Below, piece after piece: positions 5,948-64,000 of a DNA stretch of 64,000 nucleotides; positions within the stretch are counted from its first letter, which is position 1, and every line of letters begins with the position of its first letter. The notes under the pieces are model-generated. The model did no database searches. It was not told the origin of the DNA and worked only from the letters and a program-made list of their open reading frames with translations. The stretch is taken from positions 248,001 to 312,000 of the forward strand of contig WFMF01000190.1 of NCBI GenBank assembly GCA_011033025.1. The letters are read 5' to 3'. Source of the DNA: Beroe forskalii. Taxonomy: Eukaryota > Ctenophora > Nuda > Beroida > Beroidae. Position numbers and translations under genes: made by a program.

Positions 5948-6732
5948 TGGTTGACCCTGTCTGAAAGCCCCAGCTGAGCTGACCCAGGCGAGGCGGCTGC
6001 TGGGCACAGGCGAACCAAATAAGTAGATTCCAATATTCGCATTATCGTATTAACTGGAGCCTGGCTGCTCACCGCCGAAACAAATGTTAGTATGATTAAG
6101 TAGCAGAAGAACCGAAGATCTGGGAGATTATCAGTCAGGTTTGATTAAAGCTGGGGAGAAGACGTGTGAGAGAATCATTGAATACCCAGAGCCTGTTCAG
6201 TGTTCGGTGTGATAAATGGGTCTTGAAAGTTTCATCAAGTTTGCTCAAAAACTCGGAGATATGCACATTTTTGTAACGCAAATGTAAAGGTCGCATAGTT
6301 TTGCATTTAAAATGGTATTAAATTACAGTGTTATGTGTCATAACAAACACATGATATAAAACGCGTAGAACACGACTCTACGCATATAGTAATAACCTCA
6401 TAGCTTCTTATTACTTGTTATACCCTTTAAATCGGCCTAAACCTACTACACTGATACACTCTACACATAAAGCTACACATGTACATGCGCTGCTCTGCTA
6501 AATGCTCACAGCTGAATTTCTATTACTTTTGTCCCTTAATTTGTTAGTATTATAGATGACATATGATGTTCATAATATGAACATCATGTCATCTATAGTA
6601 TCATATTAAAGATCATATTATGATCTTTCCGCAAGAGTGGAACAAATGTGTAAAATATGTCGGCATACGCGCGCAAATTCTTACTTAAGGAACTCGCGTG
6701 CGTAAGATTAACGGAGGGAAAACCTACCACGC
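5948..6732. other. Gene-free stretch with two palindromes
   Basis: No gene seen. A near-perfect palindrome lies at about 6553-6597 (arms around ATGTTCATAATATGAACAT) and a second at 6608-6627 (AAGATCATATTATGATCTTT). These could mark ends of a small inserted element. Confidence 0.45.
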
Positions 6733-7088
6733 GTGAGGGTCCTGTATCAAGTCACGCCCAGAGGATATTCCCGTCCCCTTTGATCATTTCCGTTGCCTGT
6801 TACGTGACATCAATTAGCTCCCCGTGCCCCTTACACGAGCCCAACTCCTTCTTCCCTGACTTCCTAATATGGACTTTTAACCGATTTCTGGTACTTTATC
6901 ACTCTTTTGAAAAGCTAGCACCAGCTGAAATCAGCATTTTGTCCAACATGAATCAGATACCTCAGCCCATCATTTTGACTTCAGTGCTAAGGAACGGTCA
7001 GGCAATGAATCCTGGAACATACTACTGGTTAAGATGGAAGAAGGTTGGGCCGTTTTCGACAATATTGGTCCATCTGATTCCACATCTA
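6733..7088 (+). pseudogene. Duplicate of the 5' end of the giant transposase gene
   Basis: This 356 bp segment repeats 7783-8136, which spans the leader and first ~73 codons of the ORF starting at 7917, with a few small indels. The indels put stops and shifts into the reading frame; the codons after the equivalent ATG close almost at once. It is therefore a broken partial copy. The longer open frame covering it (6657-7139) mixes frames and is not a gene. Confidence 0.8.
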
Positions 7089-7124
7089 CCTTATTACAGG
7101 AAATATCGCCTTCAGAAAAATGAG

Positions 7125-7768
7125 CCTACATGTCATTAAGCTGCATGAAATTAAGCCCTTTTTGAGGCCCAAGGGCTTAATTACATGTAAGCGTAATTCA
7201 ATGCATTCTTAATTACATGCAGCCAAATTAATCCATCATCATTGTGGAATTCATGAAGTAGAAATTTCGGCCTTGTATTCAAATAATTGAGACTTTATGT
7301 CACGAATTAGAATTTGTGGCTTTATTTTTCATTTAACACTTTGATAGTTTGAATTGCTCTCCAATTACCTCTGAGAGAGAGACGATAATTACTATGACTT
7401 AATAACCTATTGAATAAATCATCTAGCATAATGAGAATCTGATCAGGCACATCAAATTGATGATCGAATATATTCCATTATTTCCACAAAAACACCACAT
7501 AATAGCTGATAATCATAACGGCCTTGGAAACGTTGCATGCTATGTAAATTCAGGAATAAAGGGTCAACGAATGAGCTTCATAGCCATCATAAGATGTCTA
7601 TTGCATCATTGATAGTCTTGGCAATACCAGTGGCTATCCATCCGGCATCCATTTAAAGCTTAATAAATGCTGAATAGAAAAATATTAGTCCTCATGAAAT
7701 TAAGACTACATGTCATTAAGGTGCATGAAATTAAGCCCTTTTTGAGACCTTAGGGCTTAATTATATGT
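7125..7768. repeat. Hairpin direct repeats flanking 507 bp
   Basis: Two ~69 bp copies of one sequence lie at about 7125-7193 and 7700-7768, same orientation. Each contains an internal stem, TTAAGCCC pairing with GGGCTTAA around a T-rich loop, and the outer ends ACATGTCATTAA/TTACATGTAA also pair. Together with the duplicated leader the order is leader', hairpin, 507 bp, hairpin, leader. The 507 bp between them shows no gene. Confidence 0.7.
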
Positions 7769-7916
7769 AAACTAAATTTCCTGTGAGGGTCCTGTATCAA
7801 GTCACGCCCAGAGGATATTCCCGTCCCCTTTGATCATTTCCGTTGCCTGTTACGTGTGACATCAATTAGCTCCCCGTGCCCTTACACGAGCCCAATCTTC
7901 TTCCTGACTTCCTAAT

Positions 7917-10900
7917 ATGGACTTAACCGATTTCCTAAGTACTTTATCACTCTTTGAAAAGCTAGCACCAGCTGAAATCAGCATTTTTGTCCAACATGAA
8001 TCAGATACCTCAGCCCATCATTTTGACTTCAGTGCTAAGGAACGGTCAGGCAATGAATCCTGGAACATACTACTGGTTAAGATGGAAGAAGGTTGGGCCG
8101 TTTTCGACAATATTGGTCCATCTGATTCCACATCTATTTATTGTGCATTGTCCTCGAATATTCCACATCCGAACCCGTCTGATTTCAAAACAATTCTAAA
8201 CCACTACTACCCTGATAAGTCCTCATTGTTTGTTTATGATGTTATCAGTCATTCCAGCCATGACCCTCAAGGAATGGTAGCAGCGTTGCTTTATGTTTAT
8301 TGTCGTATATTCAGACAGCAATGGCCTAAACGTCATATCTTAGAACTAGAACGCAATGTAGCTGCGTTGAAGCTCCAGTTAAGGTCATGTGTTATTAGCA
8401 AAAGCTTAGCTAAATTTCCATCGTGGGCACTCCGTAGTGCATTAGACCAGGACTCCATAATAACTCCGGTAGTGTATGAGGGTCTAATGACTGAGGAGGA
8501 GCTGCATCGTCGGGGACTTTTGAATCAGGCCATGAGGCAGAACAGAGCCACTAGTAGGAGTAAGGTGAGTGCTGTGAGTAGACCGAGTGGATCAGGGAGA
8601 CCAGCAGTAGTTCGTGAGAGTAGAGTTGGAGAGACAGCAGAGGATTTAGCTAGCATGAGAGAGGAGTTAGATAGTTATGTCCTACCACCATCAGACGAGG
8701 AAGATGAAGTAGTTAACGAGAGAGATGATGATATTTTCGATATTCCTTCTATGCTGGACGGGGTGTCTGTAAGTCCTTACTTCAGAGGGACGTATTCTGT
8801 CTTATTTGAAGTGCATCTAGACAGCTGTGAGGAGCCTTCAACATCGAGGCCAAGTGTTACACAACCCTTACAAAATGAACTCAATGCTGTAGACAAGGCT
8901 TGTAAGGCTCAGAAACAGAAGGAATATCGCGAATCAGTGAGAGAGAGGCAGGAGAGGTTAAGAGAAGAGCAGGAGTATAGATTAGAACGTGAGAGAGATA
9001 GTAAGAGGAGATTAGTGAGTAGATCAGACTCAGGCGATTCTACGGACGATGAGTTGCCGGTTATTGATGGACTGACCTCAGACGATACAGCTCCCAATGT
9101 TATTGAATCTCATAGTAGTGTCTCGAATGTTACTGTGGTCGCAGAAGCATTGGACAGTAATCAAACACCACAATCTTGCATTTTAGATTCAGATCCGTTG
9201 AATGCCGAAGCTTCACCGTTGACTGCTCTTGTTGAGAAAGAGACAGGAAAGCCGGAAGCAAAGCAACAATTGCGTTTAACTAACATTACTTCAGCTGATT
9301 GTTGTCGTGATTTAGCTAACCCGTCTCTTTTGAAACAAATTCTTGATGGAGATGTTAAGCTAAAGAAGGAATACAAAATACACATGTCGTATCAAAAACC
9401 ATGTTGTAACAGAAAATACAGGAATTCTGAAGTAATGTATAACTGCTTGATATGTAAGAGTTATGTATCACATAATTTCAAGAGGGTAATTGCACACTCA
9501 TTAAAATGTACGCCACTAAATGAAATATCACTTGATTATGTACCGTATAACATGTTGTTGAAGAATTCAGACAAAACTTTAGTTTCCAAATACAAAAAAG
9601 CAATGTTCTGTAAAGCGTGTAGCCAAATGTCAACCCAAGGCCACTATCATTGCTTAGAATGCAGAACCTATTGTTCGTATAATTTTTCGAGGGTTCTTAA
9701 ACACGGAGTGAAGTGCTCGAGCGGGAAGAGTTGTGTGCCCAGTGGTGTGCCGAGGGGGAATGATGAGGGTGCAGTTGGTCCGAGTGGTGTGCCGAGGGGG
9801 AATGATGAGGGTGCAGTTGGTCCGAGTGGTGTGCCGAGGGGGAATGATGAGGGTGCAGTTGGTCCGAGTGGTGTGCCGAGGGGGAGTGATGAGAGTGCAG
9901 TTGGTGCGAGTGGTGTGCCGAGGGGGAGTGATGAGAGTGCAGTTGGTGCGAGTGGTGTGCCGAGGGGGAGTGATGAGAGTGCAGTTGGTGAGAGTGGTGT
10001 GCCGAGGGGGAATGATGAGGGTGCAGTTGGTCCGAGTGGTGTGCCGAGGGGGAATGATGAGAGTGCAGTTGGTGCGAGTGGTGTGCCGAGGGGGAGTGAT
10101 GAGAGTGCTGCTGGTGCGAGTGGTGTGCCGAGGGGGAGTGATGAGAGTGCAGCTGGCGCGAGTGGTGTGCCGAGGGGGAGTGATGAGAGTGCAGTTAGTG
10201 AGAGTGGTGTGCCGAGGGGGAGTGATGAGAGTGCAGTTGGTGAGAGTGGTGTGCCGAGGGGGAATGATGAGAGTGCAGTTGGTGCGAGTGGTGTGCCGAG
10301 AGGGAGTGATGAGAGTGCAGTTGGTGAGAGTGGTGTGCCGAGGGGGAATGATGAGGGTGCAGTTAGTGCGAGTGGTGTGCCGAGAGGGAGTGATGAGAGT
10401 GCTGCTGGTGTGAGCGGTGTGCCAATGGGGAGTGATGAGAGTGTAGTTGGTGCGAGTGGTGTGCCGAGGGGGAGTGATGAGAGTGCAGTTTGTGAGAGTG
10501 GTGTGCCGAGGGGGAGTGATGAGAGTGCAGTTGGTGCGAGTGGTGTGCCGAGGGGGAGTGATGAGAGTGCAGTTGGTGCGAGTGGTATGCCGAGGGGGAG
10601 TGATGAGAGTGCAGTTGGTGCGAGTGGTATGCCGAGGGGTAGTGATGAGAGTGCAGTTGGTGCGAGTAGTGTGCCGAGGGGGAGTGATGAGAGTGCAGCT
10701 GGTGCGAGTGGTGTGCCGAGGGGGAATGATGAGGGTGGTGCAGTTGGTGAGAGTGGTGTGCCGAGGGGGAGTAATGAGAGTGCAGTTGGTGCGAGTGGTG
10801 TGCCAATGGGGAGTGATGAGAGTGTAGTTGGTGAGAGTGGTGTGCCGAGGGGGAATGATGAGGGTGCAGTTGGTGAGAGTGGTGTGCCGAGGGGGAGTGA

Positions 10901-13900
10901 TGAGAGTGCAGTTGGTGCGAGTGGTGTGCCGAGGGGGAGTGATGAGAGTGCAGTTGGTGCGAGTGGTGTGCCGAGGGGGAGTGATGAGAGTGCAGTTGGT
11001 GCGAGTGGTGTGCCGAGGGGGAGTGATGAGAGTGCAGTTGGTGCGAGTGGTATGCCGAGGGGTAGTGATGAGAGTGCAGTTGGTGCGAGTGGTGTGCCGA
11101 GGGGGAGTGATGAGAGTGCAGTTGGTGCGAGTGGTGTGCCGAGGGGGAGTGATGAGAGTGCAGTTGGTGCGAGTAGTGTGTCGAGAGGGAATGATGAGAA
11201 AGCGCCAGGTAAAACAGAATTTGATAGGGGAGTCATTGAGAAATGCCGAAGTTGTAGGAGTGATTGTGTGAGTGTGGCTAAACATATTCATTATCACTGT
11301 GACGTTTGTGATAATATGATACACAAGAGTAAAGAGAGAGTGCTAAAACATATAAGTAAGTGCCTGGAGAAACATTGCAATCCAGCAACTTCACATTGCA
11401 ATCCAGCAACTTCATTTAATGCACAAAAAATTAATAAACGCGAGTCACAGCGCGACATTTCTGCGGAGGATAAGATGCAGGCAGTACTTATTGACCCGTC
11501 CAGAGGTATATACCTGGTTCGGAGAAACACACGCGGTCCAGCGAGCCCTGTACATGTACGTGTCGATAGTAACGAGAGTATAATGCTGTGTGACAATGAC
11601 GAGTGTAAGGAAATGGCTAAGTTCAATGCTCACAGTCTCAATCCTGCATACGCCTGTCGACATATAAAATCGTGTCAGAACGCTTTTACTGACACGGGCC
11701 CTGATGTTTTTGACCCAGCGAAGGTGGCAGGAAGTTCATTTGCAAGTAGCCAAGAACAGATAAATAAGCTAGTTGAAGCAGCTAAAATTCATCAAACACC
11801 AGTAGCAAAAATGTTTATTCCCGATCCTAAAACCACGGGTATGGATACAAACAAGCATATAATGTACTTTTCTATATTCGGTAATTTCGGTGTTCAAAAA
11901 TACTATGCTCATTTTGAGCGCGTGCTGGTAGTTTTTGATCGCGATTCGAAGCGTATAAAATGCCACTGTAAGAAGGATTCTTGTGTACACCGAAAAATAG
12001 CTGGTATAATACTAGACAGTGACAGTCAATTGACCTCACAGAGGCCCGAAAATGTAGCTGATGTGGCCGAGATCGAGAAGGCTCGCAAGATTGCAGTCTA
12101 CCAAATTGAATTTAAGAAGATACCACTTAATGTAACCGTATACTTTAAACCGAAAGAAATAACGCATTTCATACCCTCCGAAGAAAAATGTGTTTACTGC
12201 AACGTAAAATTGGAAATGTTGCCCACAAACAAGCGGGGATTCATTTTTAAGAAGAAAACTAAAGTGAGTGGTATTAAAATTTCAACTAAAATTTGCCCAA
12301 AATGCTCCTTAGAATATAGATATTCCGATTACACCGATGGTTATTATAATTACAACAACACTTCATTATTCTCAATTTCATTCTTGGAAAAGCTCCTAGC
12401 TGTATGGGTTGCAGGAAATAAGGTGGAGGGGGAGTTGGAGGCAATCAATAGGTTAAATAACATTGAACACGACACGAACATAGTAATGGATGCATTAAAA
12501 TCCTATTTATCCCTCAAAGATATTGGTGATTATGAGATGAGTTGCAATAGGTGTGGGTATTTCCTAATAATGGCAGATTACGATGCAATACGTAAAGTTA
12601 ATTTTGAAGTTGATCCTGAGGAATTCCTAGAAAATGAACAGGACCCTGATGATGAGGATGAAGCATCTAAGCCATATGCCTCGTTCCAAGAGATGTACTA
12701 TCAGTGCTGCGTGCACGATCTCGCGCGTGGGATTTTGAATAAAAAGGCAGTTAACTATAGGGCAAATCTGAAGGCACTGTCTGTTAAGCTTAGCTCACAT
12801 TTTCCCGCCTTCGTTACTCCACAGAACAGTGGCCCTGTTCCCCCGTACACCGGGGGGAAAATTGATAACGATAGGGCAGAGGAAATAGAGCTCCCATTAG
12901 ACCGCTTAGAAAGCTTGATAAAAAGTAAGAAGTCTTACAAAGAGATTAAGAAAATCTGTGACCAATTTAAGATCAATACTCGTGGGGGCAAAGCTCATAT
13001 CATCCATAAGATTACTGGTATGGACAGTACATCAGAACTTTATAGTGTCATCAGGAAGAAGTTCTTTAGTATTGCTAGCAAAAGTGGCGGATTGATGCGA
13101 GCATTTTGCCCTCACGGTATTTGTTGTGGGCTGAAATTTCTTACTCTTCCAGAATCAGTAGCTGATTTCCTCAGTATAATGGACCAATTCAGGATCCCAC
13201 CAACCTTCAACATGTGTGATAGTGCATCTCTTGTGGCGAGGCATGCTGAAAATAACATGCCAGGGTTTTTTAGGCCTTACAACGGCAGGTTGGATGACTT
13301 CAAAGATCCTAACAGTGAGCTTTACAAAACAGGTGACAAGAAGGCCATTTTTAATTTTAAGACACATACCACCAAGCCTGTTGACCTAGCCTCGTACACT
13401 AAAAATAGTGCACATCCTGTTAGTGGACTAGTGGCCAGGCAACTGTACTACGACAGGTTCCATGAGTCAAACCACAAGGAGGTTGACAATCATCTTCGTA
13501 GGATTGACAACACTAATTTGGAGGGTACGGTAAATACTCAGGCTAGCGAACAACAAAACCATATAACTGCTATAAGTAAGACATCGTTGAATGGCATGGA
13601 GAGAAACCAGTTCATCAAAGCTGTTCTCTACTTGACTGCTATCCACAACTCTGACATCAACTCTAAGTGGAGAAAGAAAGTTGAAAAGCAGTCTAAAACT
13701 ACAACAAGCATTGATGATCTTGGTTTCCTTGTAAAAGTTGGAGTAGACAAGGGCTCACTTGGACCATCCGGCAATGTATCAAAGCCAGCAAGTGGGACTT
13801 CGTCATCAAGTTTCCCGACTGCTACTCTTGCGTGCAATAGTACTGAACCAGGTGCTCGGGAGTTAGTGAGTAACGTCAACACTCTAGTTTATTTGGTATC

Positions 13901-15326
13901 GTTTACAGCCTTGGGGCAAGAGATCGCTGATTCTGATCGTGTAGACTTGCGCTTTAGAAAGATTGCTAGGTATGTGAAAGGTCTCGCTGATTATGATGCT
14001 GCAGAACACCACCGTGCCTGTCTAAGATTGTGTAAGGATGCCACACCAGACCAGCAGGCAAACCTGACATTCAAAGATCTGACTGCTAGGGTCCTGTTTA
14101 ACAACCTAGATAAATGTAGATCTAAGTGCGTGCACGGCGATATGTCCAGCAATGATATAGGAATTGCGGTATCTAATCTAGCGCGTCAATCGCTACCAGA
14201 AATACCTGAATACTTATTCCTGGCAACTGAAAGAATCAAAGGCATGTCAGCAAGTCACTTCAGTGGGCCCTCTTCACACTTTGACGTGATCATTAGCGGT
14301 CTACAGTACAGGTATCAGCTTAACGGTATGGTCATCAGACGTGCTGGAAAAAATATAGCTACGATTCTATTTAAAGACGGATATTATGAGTTGAACAATG
14401 CACAGATATCGTCAATAAAGCGAGACCAATTCGTTTTCAGCTCTCGAATTGCTGTGCTGATGATGTTCAATCTGGTCAACGACGACACGTCAAAGCCAGA
14501 ACAGAAGACTAGCGTCAACAAGAAGACCCAGAAGCGTCCATTGAGTGAGGTGGGAGTGGATCAGTATGATTTTGTCACCCAGGAACACTCCTTACCTAAG
14601 ATGCATCCTGACAAGAAGATTAAGATATCACAGGCAACTGTAGTGCACATTCCTCCGACACCATGGCGTGCAGCTAGCAGGTCGGGGCGTCTTGAGTTGA
14701 CATCTGATCAGGAGAAGATCGTGACGTCCCCGAGCCAGTGGTATGATGACGTGGTGGTTAACTCATATGCCAGGATGTGTAGAAGTTACATGCGCAATAC
14801 CTTCAGATATCAGGACACGATTCTGGGCAACATTTGGCGACACGGTCACTTCAGTTCTGTTGACGGGAAATTCGTACAGATTGTAAACATCAATAACAAT
14901 CATTGGATCACGCTGTCCAATGCTCTCACCTTCACCAGAGAGCCAGGAACAGTTGAGGTATTCGACTCTATGAAGTACGATGACTCATTCTGTCAAAACA
15001 GTGTTCTCCATTCGGAGGTAGCCATGTATGTTTTACAGCTGAGACCTCATACCAACTGTGTCCGGTACATTAAGACCCAGCGTCAGATTAATGGTAATGA
15101 CTGCGGGCCGTTCGCTCTTGCATTTCTCTGGTCGCTGAGTAGAGGTCAAAACCCTGCTAATTTTGGACAAAACCTCAATCCAGTATTCATGAGGAAAATT
15201 GTCTTTACCACCCTTTCAACTGATACCTTCAGACCACCAACAGAACGGCCACCCAAATATTCACAGAAAGCAGTATTACAGGAATTTCATCTAAATGAAG
15301 TGGATGGGGTATTCTTTGCTACATAA
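7917..15326 (+). CDS. Giant KDZ-like transposase with SWIM finger and Ulp1/C48 protease
   Basis: A single 2469-codon ORF with no visible intron; ATG 7917 is the first after an in-frame TGA at 7905. Order of parts, in residues: acidic/charged N-terminal region; two Cys/His modules (about 493-531, 564-600) ending RVxxHxxKC; 35 repeats of a 14-residue unit (about 607-1096); a third module of the same type (about 1109-1150); SWIM finger CHCKKDSCVH at 1349-1358; further CxxC clusters (1424-1468, 1542-1547); a SAP-like segment (about 1659-1702); and CPHG at about 1730. Candidate catalytic acids are Asp1554 (MADYD), Asp1768 (MCDSAS) and Glu1878 (QASEQQ). The C-terminus is a C48-type protease with His2329 (NNHWITL), Asp2350 (VFDSM), Gln2390 and Cys2396 (NGNDCG). 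This order of cysteine clusters, SWIM, DDE core and Ulp1 protease matches my recollection of KDZ transposons and the related region of HMGXB3. Function in transposition is inferred; whether it is active or domesticated is not shown. Confidence 0.8.
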   Translation: MDLTDFLSTLSLFEKLAPAEISIFVQHESDTSAHHFDFSAKERSGNESWNILLVKMEEGWAVFDNIGPSDSTSIYCALSSNIPHPNPSDFKTILNHYYPDKSSLFVYDVISHSSHDPQGMVAALLYVYCRIFRQQWPKRHILELERNVAALKLQLRSCVISKSLAKFPSWALRSALDQDSIITPVVYEGLMTEEELHRRGLLNQAMRQNRATSRSKVSAVSRPSGSGRPAVVRESRVGETAEDLASMREELDSYVLPPSDEEDEVVNERDDDIFDIPSMLDGVSVSPYFRGTYSVLFEVHLDSCEEPSTSRPSVTQPLQNELNAVDKACKAQKQKEYRESVRERQERLREEQEYRLERERDSKRRLVSRSDSGDSTDDELPVIDGLTSDDTAPNVIESHSSVSNVTVVAEALDSNQTPQSCILDSDPLNAEASPLTALVEKETGKPEAKQQLRLTNITSADCCRDLANPSLLKQILDGDVKLKKEYKIHMSYQKPCCNRKYRNSEVMYNCLICKSYVSHNFKRVIAHSLKCTPLNEISLDYVPYNMLLKNSDKTLVSKYKKAMFCKACSQMSTQGHYHCLECRTYCSYNFSRVLKHGVKCSSGKSCVPSGVPRGNDEGAVGPSGVPRGNDEGAVGPSGVPRGNDEGAVGPSGVPRGSDESAVGASGVPRGSDESAVGASGVPRGSDESAVGESGVPRGNDEGAVGPSGVPRGNDESAVGASGVPRGSDESAAGASGVPRGSDESAAGASGVPRGSDESAVSESGVPRGSDESAVGESGVPRGNDESAVGASGVPRGSDESAVGESGVPRGNDEGAVSASGVPRGSDESAAGVSGVPMGSDESVVGASGVPRGSDESAVCESGVPRGSDESAVGASGVPRGSDESAVGASGMPRGSDESAVGASGMPRGSDESAVGASSVPRGSDESAAGASGVPRGNDEGGAVGESGVPRGSNESAVGASGVPMGSDESVVGESGVPRGNDEGAVGESGVPRGSDESAVGASGVPRGSDESAVGASGVPRGSDESAVGASGVPRGSDESAVGASGMPRGSDESAVGASGVPRGSDESAVGASGVPRGSDESAVGASSVSRGNDEKAPGKTEFDRGVIEKCRSCRSDCVSVAKHIHYHCDVCDNMIHKSKERVLKHISKCLEKHCNPATSHCNPATSFNAQKINKRESQRDISAEDKMQAVLIDPSRGIYLVRRNTRGPASPVHVRVDSNESIMLCDNDECKEMAKFNAHSLNPAYACRHIKSCQNAFTDTGPDVFDPAKVAGSSFASSQEQINKLVEAAKIHQTPVAKMFIPDPKTTGMDTNKHIMYFSIFGNFGVQKYYAHFERVLVVFDRDSKRIKCHCKKDSCVHRKIAGIILDSDSQLTSQRPENVADVAEIEKARKIAVYQIEFKKIPLNVTVYFKPKEITHFIPSEEKCVYCNVKLEMLPTNKRGFIFKKKTKVSGIKISTKICPKCSLEYRYSDYTDGYYNYNNTSLFSISFLEKLLAVWVAGNKVEGELEAINRLNNIEHDTNIVMDALKSYLSLKDIGDYEMSCNRCGYFLIMADYDAIRKVNFEVDPEEFLENEQDPDDEDEASKPYASFQEMYYQCCVHDLARGILNKKAVNYRANLKALSVKLSSHFPAFVTPQNSGPVPPYTGGKIDNDRAEEIELPLDRLESLIKSKKSYKEIKKICDQFKINTRGGKAHIIHKITGMDSTSELYSVIRKKFFSIASKSGGLMRAFCPHGICCGLKFLTLPESVADFLSIMDQFRIPPTFNMCDSASLVARHAENNMPGFFRPYNGRLDDFKDPNSELYKTGDKKAIFNFKTHTTKPVDLASYTKNSAHPVSGLVARQLYYDRFHESNHKEVDNHLRRIDNTNLEGTVNTQASEQQNHITAISKTSLNGMERNQFIKAVLYLTAIHNSDINSKWRKKVEKQSKTTTSIDDLGFLVKVGVDKGSLGPSGNVSKPASGTSSSSFPTATLACNSTEPGARELVSNVNTLVYLVSFTALGQEIADSDRVDLRFRKIARYVKGLADYDAAEHHRACLRLCKDATPDQQANLTFKDLTARVLFNNLDKCRSKCVHGDMSSNDIGIAVSNLARQSLPEIPEYLFLATERIKGMSASHFSGPSSHFDVIISGLQYRYQLNGMVIRRAGKNIATILFKDGYYELNNAQISSIKRDQFVFSSRIAVLMMFNLVNDDTSKPEQKTSVNKKTQKRPLSEVGVDQYDFVTQEHSLPKMHPDKKIKISQATVVHIPPTPWRAASRSGRLELTSDQEKIVTSPSQWYDDVVVNSYARMCRSYMRNTFRYQDTILGNIWRHGHFSSVDGKFVQIVNINNNHWITLSNALTFTREPGTVEVFDSMKYDDSFCQNSVLHSEVAMYVLQLRPHTNCVRYIKTQRQINGNDCGPFALAFLWSLSRGQNPANFGQNLNPVFMRKIVFTTLSTDTFRPPTERPPKYSQKAVLQEFHLNEVDGVFFAT
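9736..11205 (+). repeat. Coding 42 bp minisatellite, 35 copies
   Basis: Unit of 42 bp encoding variants of ASGVPRGSDESAVG. I count 35 units; one carries an extra GGT codon, so the frame is kept throughout. Variants at a few positions (P/A/E/V first, N or S before D, G or S after E) recur in patches, as expected from unequal exchange. Because 42 is a multiple of three, several other frames on both strands also stay open here; those are artefacts. Confidence 0.95.
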
Positions 15327-15340
15327 TCACGAACAGATCA

Positions 15341-16030
15341 TTGCGTGGTACGGGAGTAAAACTTAGCTTTGATGTACTTTTTGCCAGAGCTGGGTTTGAT
15401 TCTCGTCCCATCAACCCGAACAAATTCTGACACGAACCCACCATCAAAATACTGGAATATTATTAAAATATACAGCTGTACATAGTCTCATAACTTAGAG
15501 GGCGTGGTACGGGAGTAAGACTTAGCTTTGATGTACTTTTTGCCAGAGCTGGGTTTGATTCTCGTCCCATCAACCCGAACAAATTCTGACACGAACCTAC
15601 CATCAAAATACTGGAATATTAAAAATATACAGCTGTACATAGTCTCATAACTTAGAGGGCGTGGTACGGGAGTAAGACTTAGCTTTGATGTACTTTTTGC
15701 CAGAGCTGGGTTTGATTCTCGTCCCATCAACCCGAAAAAATTCTGACACGAACCTACCATCAAAATACTGGAATATTAAAAATATACAGCTGTACATAGT
15801 CTCATAACTTAGAGGGCGTGGTACTGGAGTAAAACTTAGCTTTGATGTACTTTTTGCCAGAGCTGGGTTTGATTCTCGTCCCATCAACCCGAACAAATTC
15901 TGACACGAACCTACCATCAGAATACTGGAATATTAAAAATATACAGCTGTACATAGTCTCATAACTTAGAGGGCGTGGTACTGGAGTAAAACTTAGCTTT
16001 GATGTACTTTTTGCCAGAGCTGGGTTTGAT
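15341..16030 (+). repeat. 157 bp tandem repeat 3' of the transposase
   Basis: About 4.4 direct copies; GCGTGGTACGGGAGTAA or a one-base variant recurs near 15343, 15500, 15659, 15816 and 15974. It begins about 15 bases after the stop codon, so it lies in the 3' UTR or the subterminal region of the element. Copies are very similar, so the amplification looks recent. Confidence 0.9.
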
Positions 16031-17131
16031 ACTTGTACAACAGTCCAGATAACTATCAAAACATAATACTTGTTCAATCTAGATCCTGTTGCTATAAGTA
16101 AATCTTATCAGCTATATTCGAAATACACGGTGCTATTACCTGAGTGATACACGCGCTTACAAGCATTCAAGAAATTGATGTGGACTTATAATCGTCGTAC
16201 TGTTGTATTATGAATTGGCCGCCCTGGTCACAGGCCCAAAAACTTTGAATTTACCTGTGGCACGAGCAAAAACATCTTTTGACTAGAAACTTGTAGTTCA
16301 CGGGATGTTGCCTCCATAACTCGTGTACTGATATTTGATAATTTCCTGAACGTTTCAAGTCAATAGGTACTTCAGTGAAGTTCAAAGGTTTTGGTCACGT
16401 CACGTTAGCACGTTGCCAGGTCAGCCAATAAATAATGCGACGAGTATATTTCAAAAGTTACGATCAACCGAAAAGCACATATAGATACATTCTCACCGAT
16501 ACTCCGGGTTTTAGCTACAAATAACGTGCGCTTAGCGTTACAGATTATTTGAAAGAAATGCACGAGAGCATTGAGTGCACTATGTTTAACGATAAACGAG
16601 CAAAGCACGTGATCGTAGAGGTTAAGATAGCCGCATGTACTTGTGTTGATGTTCAAGGTATTCTACACTGTCAAAGGCACAGTGTTATTTGCAAATAATG
16701 CACGAGTGAAGTGTTTGTATTATTTGACACGTCAAAAGAACGTAAAGAGAGAGTCGTTAAGGTTAGAAGAATGGTAGTGATTAATTAATGTGAAGCTTGA
16801 AAACAGAAGTGCTGTGTATTATTTACTAATATAATAAAATATACTGTAACATTAATATTGATATTAATATTAATAATAGAAATATATACCTATCACCTAT
16901 ATGTTTTTAAATATGCGTTATCTTATATTGTATTTAATTTCCTGTATTTAATTTCCTGTTTCACTGTTCAAAAATAATTTTAAACTGATCGTTCTGTGTT
17001 TTGTATACATTAATCACAACCACTTGGGCTCATCTAAAAGGTCACTCGCTACGCTCGTTCGGCGTTAAGGTCAAATGATACACCGGCTCTGCTCGCACAT
17101 CATTTGAAAATAACGCGATGCACGCGTTATT
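16031..17131. other. No gene seen
   Basis: AT-rich; no coding region supported. A near-palindrome AATAACGCG...CGCGTTATT sits at about 17109-17131, directly before the next element. Confidence 0.4.
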
Positions 17132-23370: not shown

Positions 23371-23704
23371 TAACTATAACTGTCTAAGACGCTATTCAGG
23401 CAGTCAATAGACCGATACGATATATATTTTCATGATGCTAATGAATCGAAAAGTTTGACAACTGAAATTTTCGCAGTTTATGCTTTTGAAGCAATTTATG
23501 TGTTCCAGTTTCTACCGTCAAAACAAAAACTACAAATGCAACTATTCATTGGGTGCGATGAAAAATATGTTATTATTTATGTTAGTTCTGTTTTATGCTT
23601 TTGAAGCAATTCAAGTGTTTCAGTTTCTACTCTCAAAACAAAAACTGCAAATGTAACTATTCAGTGGGTGCGAAATAGATGTAAAATATGTTATCATTTA
23701 TGTT

Positions 23705-24470
23705 AGTTGCGTGTTAGTTATGTGTTAGTTATGTGTTAGTAATGTGTTAGTAACGTGTTAATTATGTTAGATTTTCATTATGTTAGTTATGTTAGTTATG
23801 TTAGTTATGTTAGTTATGTTAGTTATGTTAGTTATGTTAGTTATGTTAGTTATGTTAGTTATGTTAGTTATGTTAGTTATGTTAGTTATGTTAGTTATGT
23901 TAGTTATGTTAGTTATGTTAGTTATGTTAGTTATGTTAGTTATGTTAGTTATGTTAGTTATGTTAGTTATGTTAGTTATGTTAGTTATGTTAGTTATGTT
24001 AGTTATGTTAGTTATGTTAGTTATGTTAGTTATGTTAGTTATGTTAGTTATGTTAGTTATGTTAGTTATGTTAGTTATGTTAGTTATGTTAGTTATGTTA
24101 GTTATGTTAGTTATGTTAGTTATGTTAGTTATGTTAGTTATGTTAGTTATGTTAGTTATGTTAGTTATGTTAGTTATGTTAGTTATGTTAGTTATGTTAG
24201 TTATGTTAGTTATGTTAGTTATGTTAGTTATATTATGTTAGTTATGTTAGTTATGTTAGTTATGTTAGTTATGTTAGTTATATTATGTTAGTTATGTTAG
24301 TTATGTTAGTTATGTTAGTTATGTTAGTTATATTATGTTAGTTATGTTAGTTATGTTAGTTATGTTAGTTATGTTAGTTATGTTAGTTATGTTAGTTATG
24401 TTAGTTATGTTAGTTATGTTAGTTATGTTAGTTATGTTAGTTATGTTAGTTATGTTAGTTATGCTAGTTA
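23705..24470 (+). repeat. 9 bp minisatellite array 1 (TTATGTTAG)n
   Basis: About 80 copies, nearly perfect, degenerate at the left edge and with three TTATATTATG variants near 24230-24335. Nine is a multiple of three, so long open frames coding SYV or MLV repeats arise; these are artefacts. Confidence 0.97.
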
Positions 24471-24479
24471 AGTTACTTA

Positions 24480-39990: not shown

Positions 39991-40093
39991 ACATTTGAAT
40001 AAATAAATGATAATTAAAGGCACTTTGAAATTCACTTTGCCTTATTATCATGACACTTCACTGGTCTTTTGGTCAATGACCAGTCGGCTGCAA

Positions 40094-41745
40094 CATAACT
40101 AACATAACTAACATAACTAACATAACTAACATAACATAACTAACATAACTAACATAACTAACATAACTAACATAACTAACATAACTAACATAACTAACAT
40201 AACTAACATAACTAACATAACTAACATAACTAACATAACTAACATAACTAACATAACTAACATAACTAACATAACTAACATAACTAACACTAACAACTAA
40301 CATAACTAACTAACATAACTAACATAACTAACATAACTAACATAACTAACATAACTAACGCAACTAACAACTAACATAACTAACATAACTAACATAACTA
40401 ACATAACTAACATAACTAACATAACTAACATAACTAACATAACTAACATAACTAACATAACTAACATAACTAACATAACTAACATAACTAACATAACTAA
40501 CATAACTAACATAACTAACACCAACTAACATAACTAACATAACTAACATAACTAACATAACTAACATAACTAACATAACTAATATAACTAACATAACTAA
40601 CATAACTAACATAACTAACATAACTAACATAACTAACATAACTAACATAACTAACATAACTAACATAACTAACATAACTAACATAACTAACATAACTAAC
40701 ATAACTAACATAACTAACATAACTAACATAACTAACATAACTAACATAACTAACATAACTAACATAACTAACATAACTAACATAGCTATTTCAACTAACA
40801 TAACTAACATAACTAACATAACTAACATAACTAACATAACTAACATAACTAACATAACTAACATAACTAACATAACTAACATAACTAACCTTATAACTAA
40901 CATAACTAACATAACTAACATAACTAACATAACTAACATAACTAACATAACTAACATAACTAACATAACTAACATAACTAACATAACTAACATAACTAAC
41001 ATAACTAACATAACTAACATAACTAACATAACTAACATAACTAACATAACTAACATAACTAACATAACTAACATAACTAACATAACATAACTAACATAAC
41101 TAACATAACTAACATAACTAACATAACTAACATAACTAACATAACTAACATAACTAACATAACTAACATAACTAACATAACTAACACAACTAACATAACT
41201 AACATAACATAACTAACGCAACTAACATAACTAACATAACTAACATAATTAACATAATTAACATAATTAACATAATTAACATGATTAACATGATTAACAT
41301 AATTAACATAATTAACATAATTAACATAATTAACATAATTAACATGACTAACATGACTAACATGACTAACATGACTAACATGACTAACATGACTAACATG
41401 ACTAACATGACTAACATGACTAACATGACTAACATGACTAACATGACTAACATGACTAACTAACATGACTAACATGACTAACATGACTAACATGACTAAC
41501 ATGACTAACATGACTAACATGACTAACATGACTAACATGACTAACATGACTAACATGACTAACATGACTAACATGACTAACATGACTAACATGACTAACA
41601 TGACTAACATGACTAACATGACTAACATGACTAACATGACTAACATGACTAACATGACTAACATAACCAACATAAATAACATAACTAACATAACTAACAT
41701 AACTAACATAACTAACATAACTAACATAACTAACATAACTAACAT
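40094..41745 (-). repeat. 9 bp minisatellite array 2 (CTAACATAA)n
   Basis: About 180 units, the reverse complement of array 1. It has blocks of sequence variants: CTAACATAA to about 41227, TTAACATAA/TTAACATGA to 41340, CTAACATGA to about 41663, then CTAACATAA again. Short slips interrupt it near 40285, 40362, 40785 and 40888. All long open frames in it are periodicity artefacts. Confidence 0.97.
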
Positions 41746-42344
41746 AAGATAGATAGATAGATAGATAGTTGACGGCAGGCTTACTAAAGCCCCCGTAGTG
41801 CCCCCAACACACAGGATTGGAGGACATATATGCCCGACCATACCCTTGGCCGACATGGTTCCTTGGTGGTATGCGAGCAGTATTCATATTTAGTACTCCA
41901 GTGAGTACGTCTCTGCCTTAGCATAACTCTAGTGCAGAGATATGAATGAGATAACTGCAGTCGGCCCTGTCTCAGCATATCTAGTGATTTGGTGCTCAAT
42001 TTGCTGCGTCAGTGCGTTCAAGTTGTTAGTGCCACACACAGGTTTCCCATTGACTAGTGCCTACGCGCAGCCGTACGGGGAGTGCCAATCGTGCGCGGCA
42101 CTTTATCAGAACGTATAACCCTGTTTGCATAGCGCGGCGCGTCCCGGGGGAGCGCGGCGCGTGCACGCTCTTGGACTCCTGTGCTGATGCGGTTAAGTTT
42201 TGTGGACTGTAAGATAGTTGATACAGGTTGCGTTACCTATGTGATGTATACAGTTATAACTGAGAGTGCATTGGGAGGTTCCCCAGTCCGGCAGTCGAGA
42301 CCTTGATTGTTGATATCGCTAGCGTAATAGAGGAAGATAATTTT
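41746..42344. other. Simple repeat and GC-rich fragment, no gene
   Basis: GATA microsatellite at 41747-41768. At 42112-42172 a GC-rich segment (CCTGTTTGCATAGCGCGGCG) resembles 35159-35216 in the nested palindrome cluster. Confidence 0.55.
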
Positions 42345-45718: not shown

Positions 45719-45762
45719 TGTACCAGAAGGATAAGTTATTGCACCCTCCCTTAAAAATAGAA

Positions 45763-46389
45763 ATAACTTATCCTTCTGGGACACGAGTGTGTCCCAGAAG
45801 GATAAGTTATTTTCCAATTTTGAAAAAGAAAAAATAACCCATCCTTCTGGGACACGAGTGTGTCCCAGAAGGATAAGTTACCTTTAATTATTGAAAAAGA
45901 AAAAATAACCCATCCTTCCGGCACACGAGTGTGTCCCAAAAGGACAAGCCATTTCCATTTTTTTTGAAAGGGAAAAATAACTTGTCCTTCTGGGACACGT
46001 GTGTGTCCCGGGGGGATGGGTTGTTTTTATTTTGCAATGTTGGTGTGTCGATGCGCACATCTTTCCTTGGCGAAGCGTGAAGCTGCTCAGGCGAGTCTGG
46101 CAGAAGTGGCATACCCAGTGGTACACTTGTCAGGCGTTGCATGACCCCCATGCTAACCTTGCCCTAACCAGGACCCTGGTTACGCGCACAGATGATGGAG
46201 TGCGCGGCGCGGCAAGCTTCGTGCTTCGCCAGGGAGGGATGTGCGCATTGACACGCCAACATTGTAGAGTGGGGATAACTTATCCTTCTGGGACACACGC
46301 GTGTCCCAGAAGGGTGGGTTGTTTTTCTTTTTCAGTGGTGGAATAACTTATCCTTCTGGGACACACTCGTGTCCCAGAAGGATGAGTTA
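45763..46389. repeat. Cluster of six ~48 bp palindromes
   Basis: Each unit is a near-perfect inverted repeat around a 2-4 base centre: arm ATAACTTATCCTTCTGGGAC, centre near GAGT, then its complement. Units: about 45763-45810 (perfect 22 bp arms), 45834-45881, 45905-45951, 45977-46023, 46275-46320 and 46342-46389. The first four are spaced ~71-72 bp with A-rich linkers. Between the fourth and fifth, 46034-46090 pairs with 46210-46266 (CAATGTTGG and ATGCGCACATC). A half-unit touches the LINE junction at 45722-45740. Confidence 0.9.
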
Positions 46390-48282
46390 TTTTTCTTTTT
46401 CAAAAATAACTAACATAAGTAACATGCGAAATACCGAAGATTCTTCTTCTGGAGTGTGACAGTGAAGAGTGTGACAGTGAAAGGCAGCTGTGAGATCCAG
46501 TGAGCGCTAACTTGGAATCTTGATCTGTATTCTGTGGCTAATTGTAATTACTATACATCGCATAATGTGTTAATGTACTCCGGTCCTCTGACAGCTCCCT
46601 TTTTGCATTATTCCAATCGGAATAAAGTTCTTAAAAATATAATACTTACAGCAGTTAACATTTACTTCGCCACCACTGGCTTCCAATCTGAAACTTGTTG
46701 ACTTCATCACTAGGAAGAAACAGCAAAGTATCTAACTGTCAAGGGTATTAACTAGAAATTTGGTTTGAGAAATTAGAGGTTAAGAACTCACTTCTCTGAA
46801 CGTTACAACGTTGGGTTTCTTGAGAACATATTGAGCTGATTGCCATTGAAAATTTGAAACCAAGCTACAAACTGACAGACCCAGTAAGACTAAGAATTAC
46901 CTACTGCACGGATCCTGCTGTTTAAATCGGGAAACAATGTGAAGTTTGAACTTCAGTCAGAGGCATACCTAAATGCTGTCACCTCGGCATTATTGAATGA
47001 AATGATTTAACATCTTTTCTCTTTCAGATACCGATACGTTGAACCAAGGATCTAACTCCTCCGACGCATCTAAATTCGGGACAAGATTTCGCAATGATAT
47101 GATGAAAACAGACTACAGACCCCAAGCCTCAGATGGAGTCAACAAAGTCCATGCTTTCTGGAATCCTGGATTTTCTCTTAATCTATAGGCATCGTGGTTA
47201 TAAGTTAATTAATTGATTTTAATAAGTTACTTAATTAGGGTAATTAGGGCTATTAATGATAAGTTAATTCATATCCATCTCCATGTAAATAATTACTATT
47301 ACCGTCCCCTGTCTATACTTAACGACGACATCTTGTTTCTGGCGGAAAAGGTTGTGCGCCATGAGAGCAAGAAGTTCAATTCAAGGGGCACGATTGAAAT
47401 TCTGAAAAATTAATATCCGACATGTCATTTGCAGGTTAAGATCAATTAAATTAAAGTTAGTTAACACGTACTACTATTAATTGCCTTTTTGATAAATCAC
47501 AGTAACTGTAGGTTCTGTTTTATGTTGTAAATTGTTTTTAATTAAATTTAAGATTTTATTTTTCAATGTTTAATTTCTTCAATTTCATTTGTTGTTACCT
47601 TAATATTTTATTTAATGAACATTGGTCATTGACTCTTATGATTTTTGATAAGTATTAATTTACTGTTAAATTAACTGTTAATTACTGTTAAAAGCTCCTT
47701 GTTTTTAGAATTAACGATTTTAATTAACATTTATAAATTAACCATTATTTGTAAATATTAAATTAATTGCAGGAATAATCTCTTGAATCTATGATTCTAC
47801 TAACAAGTGACTTGCAGCTTATCCCATTGCCAAGTATCAAATTATAGAAATTTGATGTCTATAATTTCGATAACTTGGTTGGTGACTATACCTCAAACCA
47901 TGGTTATTATGTGGTTAATCACGTACCGATGGGTTCAATATTTATACACGATAAGGGGGTTGCGTTGAAATGGGAAAATGGGAATCGGGCGGCATTCCAA
48001 AAGCGGGCATTGGACATCGAGTGTTGAAATTATACCGAATAGATGAGGGCCAGACAAAAACTAAGTAAATTTCATCAATATCAATTCTTCTATTACTCAA
48101 TACTCAAACTCTCCTTCGAAAATATCCATTTCTTCTTTGAATTATTTCATCTATTCATTCTCAAATGAAAATTTAAATGAAAAGTGATTGTTGCTTGTTG
48201 TACCCTAACCAAATCCACTAAAATAGTTGTACTGTGCACAAAATGTAGTTTGCATAGCTGTGATAAGGGTAACTCTGGATGA
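46390..48282. other. AT-rich stretch, one candidate terminal exon
   Basis: At 47029-47189 an open segment follows a strong acceptor (CATCTTTTCTCTTTCAG) and reads TDTLNQGSNSSDASKFGTRF onward to a TAG at 47187. The family is not recognised and no partner exon was found. The rest is AT-rich without supported features. Confidence 0.35.
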
Positions 48283-62173: not shown

Positions 62174-64000
62174 ATGGGCACACTCAGCAAACCTCAGGTA
62201 AACAACTCTATAGTTTCTAATAAAGCAAACCCAAGCAACCAGCACAAAAATTCCTCCACCAAAGGAAGGGGCAACTCGATTACTGAGCTTAGCTTCCTCC
62301 CTTGCTCTCAAATAAACCTCCACCACTCTGAGAGTCCAACGGCCCAATTCTACTACAACATAGACTTAAATGACGATCTTCCCTACATCACTTTCGTGCA
62401 AGAACCGTACTGCGTGAAAGGAATACCAAAACATGTTCCCGGTAATGGGGTCACCTTCTACCACCACTCACAGGACCAAGCCAACCCTAGAGCCACACTC
62501 ACTATCTCAAAAAACATTGCTGATCAATTTTTCTTCCAAAAACAATTTTCCAATAAAGATATGGCAACATGCTCCGTGGAATTGCCCACGAGGAAACTTT
62601 ACATCTCCAGTATTTACATGGATTACACACAAGACATACCACCGAGCTTTATCAAACTCGCAGAACATTGTCTAACTAACAAGCACGGACTTGTCATAGG
62701 CACCGACAGCAACTCTCGTCACACTGCATGGGGCAATCGCATCAGCAACTCACGCGGGCATAAATTGATACAGTGCTTAGCACAGACTGGCCTCCTATGG
62801 ATCAATAACGGTAAATTTACATTTAAACGTAACCACCAAGAATCAGCTATTGATCTCACGCTCCACAACCATTTTTCGCCTAAAATAGACTTCTGGGACA
62901 CTAACCCTGATTTCTCCATATCCGACCACGTCCTTATAGAATTTGTTATAAATCTAGATTCAAAGGACAAAATCAAAACCAGACCAATCCGTACAATTAA
63001 CAAAAAACGATGCGACTGGACCAAATTCAAAACTAAACTTAAATCTACTTTAGAATCCACACCAAACGTCTATAGCAGCTCCATTGGGAATATACACACT
63101 AAGAATATGACCTACCTCAATCAGCAAGTCGATAATTTAAACAAATTGCTCCTCAACTGCTTCATCTCATCTTGTCCAAAAACATTCATCAGGAACAAAA
63201 AAACCCTTTCGTGGTGGACAACAGAACTCACGGACCTGGAACTTGACCTCATTCAAGCAAGGAACAACCACGAAGTTGATCCCGACAACCCGGAACTTAA
63301 TTCGAAATTTAAAGAAGCCCAAGAATTCCTCCATTCACAGATTAAGAATCATTCAAATGCCAACTGGGAAGCATTCTGCTCGGGATTAGAGAAACAAAAA
63401 GATGTATCAAGAATTTGCAAATCACTACAAGGTAATAAACAATGCAACCTCAGCTCACTTCGCAAATCAGACGGTAGGTACGTTTACAGAAAGTCCTAAA
63501 GAAACCTTAGAAACTCTAGCATCCAACATTTTCACGCAAACAGAACCAGACAGAAGTGAACTCTCTCCCTGTAGCGAGAGACTCACCATCGATGAGATCA
63601 ATCATATCATCTCTCCAAAGAGACTGGATGAAGTGATAAATTCCCTCAAGAAATGTAAATCCCCAGGCGATGACCAAATAACAAATGAAATCCTCATTGA
63701 GGCCTATGACATCATTAAAGTCCCTCTGCTAAACATTTTCAGAATCTCTCTTTTTAGAGCCAAACTTCCCAAAGCTTGGCAAACATCAAACTCTGTTATA
63801 CTCTCTAAGCCAGGTAAGGAGGACTACTTCACTGCAAAATCCTTTCGCATCATTACTTTATCTTCCTGCACACTCAAACTCATGGAAAGACTTATCCTCT
63901 GGCACCTTCAACGAGATCTCAAGCTTGAAGCATCCTTATCACACAAACAATACGGGTTTAGGAAAGGCAGCAGCACAGAATCAGCGATTCTCAAACTTGT
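62174..64000 (+). pseudogene. LINE ORF2: AP-endonuclease and RT, frameshifted, partial
   Basis: The N-terminal endonuclease/exonuclease/phosphatase domain has its expected acids and His: Glu77 (VQEPY), YMDY, Asp178 (GTDSNSRHTAW), SAIDLTL and His252 (SDH). A ~230-residue linker follows. Near 63476 a four-base GTAG duplication (GGTAGGTACG, where copy A has GGTACG) breaks the frame, and the 441-codon ORF ends at 63499. RT continues in another frame with KSPGDDQ, FRIITLSSCTLKLMERL and YGFRKGSSTES to the window end. Over ~184 residues of linker shared with copy A I see one difference (WWTT/WWTP). Confidence 0.85.

Follow-up and report, generated by a model that had tools for sequence, protein, structure and literature searches.

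Does a gene that joins transposase-like motifs to ubiquitin-type proteases belong to a mobile element or to its host? The question is raised by a stretch of 64,000 nucleotides from the ctenophore Beroe forskalii (contig WFMF01000190.1, positions 248,001 to 312,000, assembly GCA_011033025.1; hereafter the window, with positions counted from its first letter), whose forward strand holds at 7917-15326 a single, uninterrupted ATG-to-stop frame of 2469 codons. A sequence-only reading of the window had called this frame intronless and had taken it for a possibly complete and active transposon of the Kyakuja-Dileera-Zisupton (KDZ) group; the frame is open throughout, where intronless means one open frame as read from DNA alone. 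By our own arithmetic on random codons, a frame of this length would open by chance with a probability of ~10^-51, or ~10^-41 without the repeat array that it contains, so a chance origin is out of the question. The explanation that we favor, with some reservation, is that the frame encodes a transposase-derived CxC4/SWIM (KDZ-associated) protein with three ubiquitin-like-protease folds, most likely a DNA- or chromatin-bound de-conjugating enzyme, and that it belongs to a retained, old gene family.

Domain content of the open frame

The features of the protein are given below in N- to C-terminal order, with low-complexity sequence following the first domain:

7917-15326, + strand: whole open reading frame, 2469 codons (open-frame listing, translation)
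7917-8411, + strand: Ulp1/SENP-fold domain at the N terminus, residues 1-165, whose catalytic residues seem to have been lost (structure prediction)
9402-9722, + strand: two zinc-finger-like Cys/His clusters, residues 496-602 (sequence)
9741-11199, + strand: linker built from a 42-bp (14-residue) unit repeated 34.7 times (tandem-repeat detection)
11241-11372, + strand: third Cys/His cluster, residues 1109-1152 (sequence)
11961-11990, + strand: SWIM-type motif CxCx4CxH, residues 1349-1358 (motif level)
12153-12401, + strand: CxC4 cysteine cluster (PF18717), residues 1413-1495 (Pfam profile)
12582-12584, + strand: D1556, first conserved acid (invariant in 13 of 13 copies)
12888-13022, + strand: SAP-like segment lying between the first two acids, residues 1658-1702 as delimited by eye (alignment)
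13218-13220, + strand: D1768, second of the conserved acids, immediately following a predicted strand (alignment; low-confidence model)
13548-13550, + strand: E1878, third conserved acid, within a predicted helix (alignment; low-confidence model)
13803-14483, + strand: USP-fold domain, residues ~1963-2189 (structure prediction)
14649-15233, + strand: C-terminal Ulp1 (C48) protease, residues ~2245-2439, with His2329, Asp2350, Gln2390, and Cys2396 (fold, alignment)

The link to transposases comes from the center of the protein. The CxC4 profile matches the window protein with an E value of 1.8e-8 (34.7 bits, cut-off 26.9) and all 13 aligned copies at E values up to 1. Upstream of it lies the SWIM motif that the sequence-only reading had described, C1349-x-C1351-x4-C1356-x-H1358, whose four ligands do not vary among the 13 aligned copies; the Pfam SWIM profile matches neither the window protein nor the aligned copies, and the assignment is made at the level of the motif. 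Clusters of the form H-x-C-x2-C that resemble those at residues 496-602 occur in several paralogues. The proposed SAP-like segment is recognized by the Pfam SAP profile (PF02037) in 4 of 13 copies at E values up to 1, the best being 1.2e-5, but not in the window copy itself. Among the three acids originally placed at 1554, 1768, and 1878, all of which are present as letters, D1768 and E1878 show no variation across the 13 copies, whereas position 1554 is Asp in only six of the 13; the true first acid is D1556, invariant in all 13. In a low-confidence structure model of the core, one strand ends at D1556, another lies just before D1768, and a helix surrounds E1878, an arrangement that tentatively fits an RNase H-like core. 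Searches with the Pfam D-D-E families matched neither the window protein nor the aligned copies, and the core profile returned only two matches in the PDB, with E values of 8 or worse. The CxC4 cluster, the conserved acids, and the context of modules support descent from a CxC4-type transposase, short of proving it.

To this center the C-terminus adds a protease. The C-terminal domain is predicted to adopt the Ulp1/SENP fold and carries His2329, Asp2350, Gln2390, and Cys2396, the full set named in the sequence-only reading, invariant in 15 of 15 aligned copies; the co-occurrence in one protein of a CxC4 cluster, a D-D-E set, and an Ulp1-type protease with its catalytic residues is hence borne out. 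The Peptidase_C48 profile scores the whole protein at 19.2 bits, under its cut-off of 20.7, and residues 1270-2469 at exactly 20.7, and it matches 4 of 13 copies at E values up to 1. When a family profile of this domain is compared with the PDB, the best match is SENP5 (E 3e-4), and the viral core protease 6lj9 is among the further matches. The latter, together with the single 2469-residue chain, the complete catalytic set of a Cys protease at its end, and the long repeat linker, would suit a polyprotein of the viral or retroelement sort, which its own C-terminal protease would cut so as to release transposase, zinc, and USP-like portions. With SENP5 as the top match and with linkers that differ among the paralogues inspected (no systematic search for a conserved cleavage site was made), we consider such a polyprotein quite improbable.

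Structure prediction indicates two further protease folds, both overlooked by the sequence-only reading. In the N-terminal domain, predicted to have an Ulp1/SENP fold, the position of the catalytic His aligns with Gly59, which is invariant in 10 of 10 copies, and a D-x-x-G motif without Cys is likewise present in all 10 (the register to the Cys is our own reading); the domain is apparently a pseudoprotease. Residues ~1963-2189 are predicted to form a USP (peptidase C19) fold, in which the nucleophile position, placed by what we take to be the USP motif and by a register of our own, is Ser in 11 of 11 copies, four of which have a Cys one residue earlier; this domain is apparently a pseudo-deubiquitinase in which Ser replaces the Cys nucleophile. 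Pfam finds neither a USP nor a C48 match in these two domains, and an NCBIfam search gave no match. The identities of both domains rest on structure prediction, because sequence profiles found nothing in the PDB below an E value of 0.61 for the USP-like domain and 0.27 for the N-terminal domain.

The 42-bp repeat array, which had also escaped earlier notice, accounts for ~487 codons of the frame. Its repeats differ from one paralogue to another in the linkers of the six that were inspected, and PDB matches of the linker to bacterial adhesins were set aside as chance likeness between repeats. A long antisense frame at 9654-11324 overlies the array and is most likely its by-product.

We propose that the parts of this protein could work together as follows. 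The chain combines a conserved D-D-E set, into which a SAP-like segment is inserted, with several zinc modules and with three domains of ubiquitin-like-protease fold; the zinc, SWIM, and SAP parts would bind DNA and position the protein there, the two inactive protease folds may hold SUMO, ubiquitin, or a similar tag, and the C-terminal Cys protease, as its predicted fold and aligned residues suggest, would strip the tag, most likely SUMO, from nearby proteins. Because SUMO promotes silent chromatin (PMC8131101; here and for the papers cited below, according to the portion of the text accessible to us), an enzyme that removes SUMO while bound to DNA could work against silencing, whether it serves a transposon or acts as a regulator for the host. 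More speculatively, a non-bilaterian animal may have turned a CxC4-type transposase into a set of DNA-addressed SUMO/ubiquitin erasers, whose full-length members would combine an active Ulp1 protease, two inactive folds as tag readers, a zinc set of their own, and fast-changing linkers, and each of which would strip chromatin of modifiers at DNA targets of its own; we offer this as a tentative extension that we would not yet count as likely.

The gene family and its selection

The sequence-only reading had held that a lack of related copies would argue for a host gene. Copies were found: in the assembly searched (216 Mb, 1134 contigs), a protein search with residues 1087-2469 gave at least 39 matches, which we count as at least 24 loci, fragments included, a lower bound since 34 of 46 first-look candidates were scored. 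The CxC4 profile alone has 19 matches in the genome, all over the cut-off, and zero in 14 control genomes, those named being bacteria and archaea. The closest long relative lies on contig C991, with 86% identity across the part used as query, and two further copies, on C845 and C266, are truncated at the 3′ end. In a tree of 13 cores, the lineages branch deeply and close pairs are found at the tips; several loci are clustered: three on C691 within ~30 kb, two each on C173 and C791 within ~65 kb, and two on C237 ~200 kb apart. A core-profile scan of viral contigs, made with a viral origin in mind, yielded 310 pattern matches and no relative.

The ratio of nonsynonymous to synonymous substitution rates (dN/dS) was taken, like the conservation counts above, from the better-preserved copies. 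Among 78 pairs of cores, three have dS below 1.5, and these have dN/dS values of 0.083 (C237/C991, dS 0.61), 0.056 (C1002/C717, dS 0.71), and 0.079 (the C691 pair, dS 0.32). By domain, the C237/C991 pair has 0.134 in the N-terminal domain, 0.085 from SWIM to SAP, 0.184 in the USP-like domain, and 0.087 in the C48 protease; in C1002/C717 the inactive domains have 0.104 and 0.149. Constraint hence acts on the inactive domains too in both pairs. Five of the per-domain comparisons are saturated (four of C791/C1002 and the core of C259/C270), and one stretch of 86 codons has a dN of 0. These values bear on whether the family is a decaying, functionless relic whose conservation reflects past transposon activity, as the stops, splits, or truncations in several copies might suggest; with the window frame intact over 2469 codons, and with dN/dS no higher than 0.18 across the domains tested for pairs at dS 0.3-0.9, we regard a relic as highly improbable.

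Synonymous divergence is uneven along the paralogue pairs, with a dS in C237/C991 of 0.135 for residues 130-215 versus 0.74 for residues 1270-1965, and in the C691 pair of 2.1 for the N-terminal domain versus 0.32 for the core, which suggests gene conversion. The family is old and numbers at least two dozen loci; the pairs that can be tested are under purifying selection, and there are signs of local duplication, gene conversion, and loss.

Flanking sequence and the case for mobility

The most serious alternative to a retained gene family is an autonomous, low-copy KDZ/CxC4 DNA transposon that is still or was recently mobile, whose ends lack long inverted repeats and whose proteases evade SUMO-based silencing. 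Such an element would account for a multi-copy, intronless gene whose D-D-E set is preserved in all 13 aligned copies, with several of its copies broken or truncated. Other transposases have been reported to come with Ulp1, OTU, or C19 peptidases (PMC2836005), and in the two Kyakuja families that have been described the target duplications are 7 bp long and the ends, CA..TG, lack terminal repeats (PMC12730594), so that an absence of repeats is not decisive.

In six copies, an ungapped search for inverted repeats between the 5′ and 3′ flanks (0.5-2.6 kb, with very short or distant repeats outside its reach) gave scores of 8-13, none of which stands out; the observed score was reached by 34, 36, 13, 7, 23, and 60 of 60 dinucleotide shuffles in the six copies, respectively. 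In a smaller test with four controls each, C1002, C717, and C791 exceeded their controls by 1-2. The point at which homology ends differs from pair to pair, and two flanking pieces are restricted to close paralogues, the 3′ region of the window gene being confined to C237 and C991, and a 429-bp piece upstream of the C1002 copy to C1002 and C717. When 18 copies were compared as DNA, the best match over 1 kb was 90.9%, and the nearest cores have a dS of 0.32; pairs are moreover under purifying selection. The description of the locus as a possibly complete and active transposon thus finds no support, as no terminal repeats stand out and even the three closest testable pairs have diverged in the core (dS 0.32-0.71, with dN/dS under 0.09), and we think a mobile element possible, if doubtful. 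On balance, the flanks, the search for terminal repeats, and the divergence argue against recent mobility, and the pattern of copies fits old gene duplication better than recent transposition.

Several observations nevertheless weigh against a retained, transposase-derived gene family. A frame that runs for 7.4 kb without introns and keeps its D-D-E set intact looks itself like that of a transposon. The partial copy on C845 is 94.8% identical over 906 bp, and the 5′ flank of the window gene is matched at no fewer than two truncated copies as well as at its own duplicate; with 40 of 426 candidates scored, others may have escaped this search. Broken loci are numerous: stops interrupt C403, C153, C360, and, toward its N terminus, C717; the frame of C991 is split in the repeat region; one copy (C691b) ends before the C48 domain; and C845 and C266 are truncated at the 3′ end. 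A dying transposon family would also look like such a set of broken and partial loci. With regard to the transposase ancestry, the predicted local distance difference test score of the core model is ~38 around each of D1556, D1768, and E1878, which leaves an RNase H-like fold unproven, and the KDZ transposase model PF18758 matches neither the window protein (E up to 1) nor the genome (E up to 0.01), the 14 control genomes being silent too and the core perhaps too divergent. Membership of KDZ, as first proposed, finds support in the CxC4 cluster over its cut-off and in the invariant acids, with no match to PF18758. Overall, the behavior of the gene suits a retained family of transposon descent better than an element that moved recently; a mobile form at low copy number whose ends have gone undetected, or an old element of the Kyakuja type, is conceivable.

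The immediate flanks of the gene hold two further features:

6221-7088, + strand: degenerate duplicate of the sequence 5′ of the gene, its first codons included (sequence comparison)
15343-16030, + strand: 157-bp units in tandem 3′ of the gene, every one of which can fold into a long hairpin (repeat detection, folding)

The first of these has two further 3′-truncated relatives on other contigs (L051, L052). Between it and the gene is inserted a dispersed repeat of ~700 bp (7087-7784), present at ~70-93% identity in at least 37 other places, whose ends look by eye like short inverted repeats around ACAGGAAAT. The 157-bp array is partly kept downstream of the C991 copy (L006 5636-6057), and a 24-nt motif of its units occurs at eight places in the genome (up to three mismatches), all just 3′ of C237 or C991. 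Across eight units of the hairpin, 4 of 25 consensus pairs are changed on both sides and several are broken in one or two units; the units are possibly a structured element of the 3′ untranslated region, and an Rfam scan of 15000-16500 gave no match. Tandem units with a palindrome (TCCTTCTGGGACAC..., by eye) also occur in the window at 45761-46009 and 46268-46402, unrelated to the gene, and the idea of hairpin arrays as a hallmark of the family was dropped on account of the former. Near other copies, an array of a 313-bp unit (13.9 copies, with ~44-bp palindromes) lies upstream of the C1002 copy (L053 1653-5999), and the 429-bp piece shared by C1002 (443764-444192) and C717 (75654-76078) is 97% identical, their coding cores 87.6%.

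Elsewhere in the window, arrays of a 9-bp unit at 23698-24479 and 40092-41747 (87 and 185 copies) overlap several open frames, which are for that reason probably spurious, and a frame of 441 amino acids at 62174-63499 carries an endonuclease/reverse-transcriptase-type domain (PF14529, E 8.6e-15) as in retrotransposons without long terminal repeats. A tRNA scan of the window found none. The mitochondrial COX1 of the assembly (contig C1134, L055) is very divergent; TGA reads as Trp, and Arg falls at what we take to be its conserved sites only if AGA is read as Arg, which fits genetic code 4 and a non-bilaterian animal.

Comparison with known systems

The USP-like domain finds its nearest parallel in pseudo-USPs: its structural matches include PAN2, which has a USP fold without the full catalytic set, and 4msx, presumably Sad1. 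Sad1 likewise has a USP fold with an incomplete catalytic set. Both differ from the window protein in having no link to a transposase. SWIM motifs, in turn, are typical of Mutator-like proteins. In the literature as judged by titles and the openings of abstracts, most subscription journals being outside reach, no description of this combination of domains was found.

With KDZ transposases the window protein shares a CxC4 cluster over the Pfam cut-off, zinc clusters, and a conserved D-D-E set; it differs in being unmatched by PF18758, in its SWIM motif, SAP-like insertion, and two apparently inactive folds beside the Ulp1 protease, and in showing no terminal repeats. The sequence-only reading also drew a comparison with HMGXB3, to which it ascribed a related region. 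In fish, an F-box is fused to a KDZ-type CxC7 cluster (PMC12062965), and KDZ, SWIM, and Ulp1 are absent from the main text, so far as accessible, of a survey of transposon-derived transcription factors in animals (PMC10027918).

Ginger1, Mutator-like, and other Ulp1- or OTU-bearing transposases resemble the window protein in having an Ulp1 protease C-terminal to a D-D-E transposase (PMC2836005). Ginger1 differs in its integrase-type core, its terminal inverted repeats, and its mostly high copy number, and the accessible text of the same paper, which reports a protist transposase with a C19 (USP-type) peptidase, names no transposase joined, like the window protein, to both a USP-like and a second, inactive Ulp1 domain (PMC2836005). 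Several groups of transposons carry a ubiquitin-type protease, for reasons that are still at the stage of proposals (PMC2836005, PMC9741609). A family under purifying selection in the pairs tested, in which transposase-like acids are found beside three protease folds, one of them apparently functional and the others apparently not, is a place to ask what such proteases are for, and whether they shield transposons from SUMO-based silencing or have been taken over by hosts as chromatin regulators. The VTD deubiquitinases of Helitrons, although they belong to a tegument-like class of protease and to another class of transposon, offer the parallel of transposon-borne, ubiquitin-type proteases that exist in active and inactive copies and have been domesticated in animals, where their descendants are often inactive (PMC9741609).
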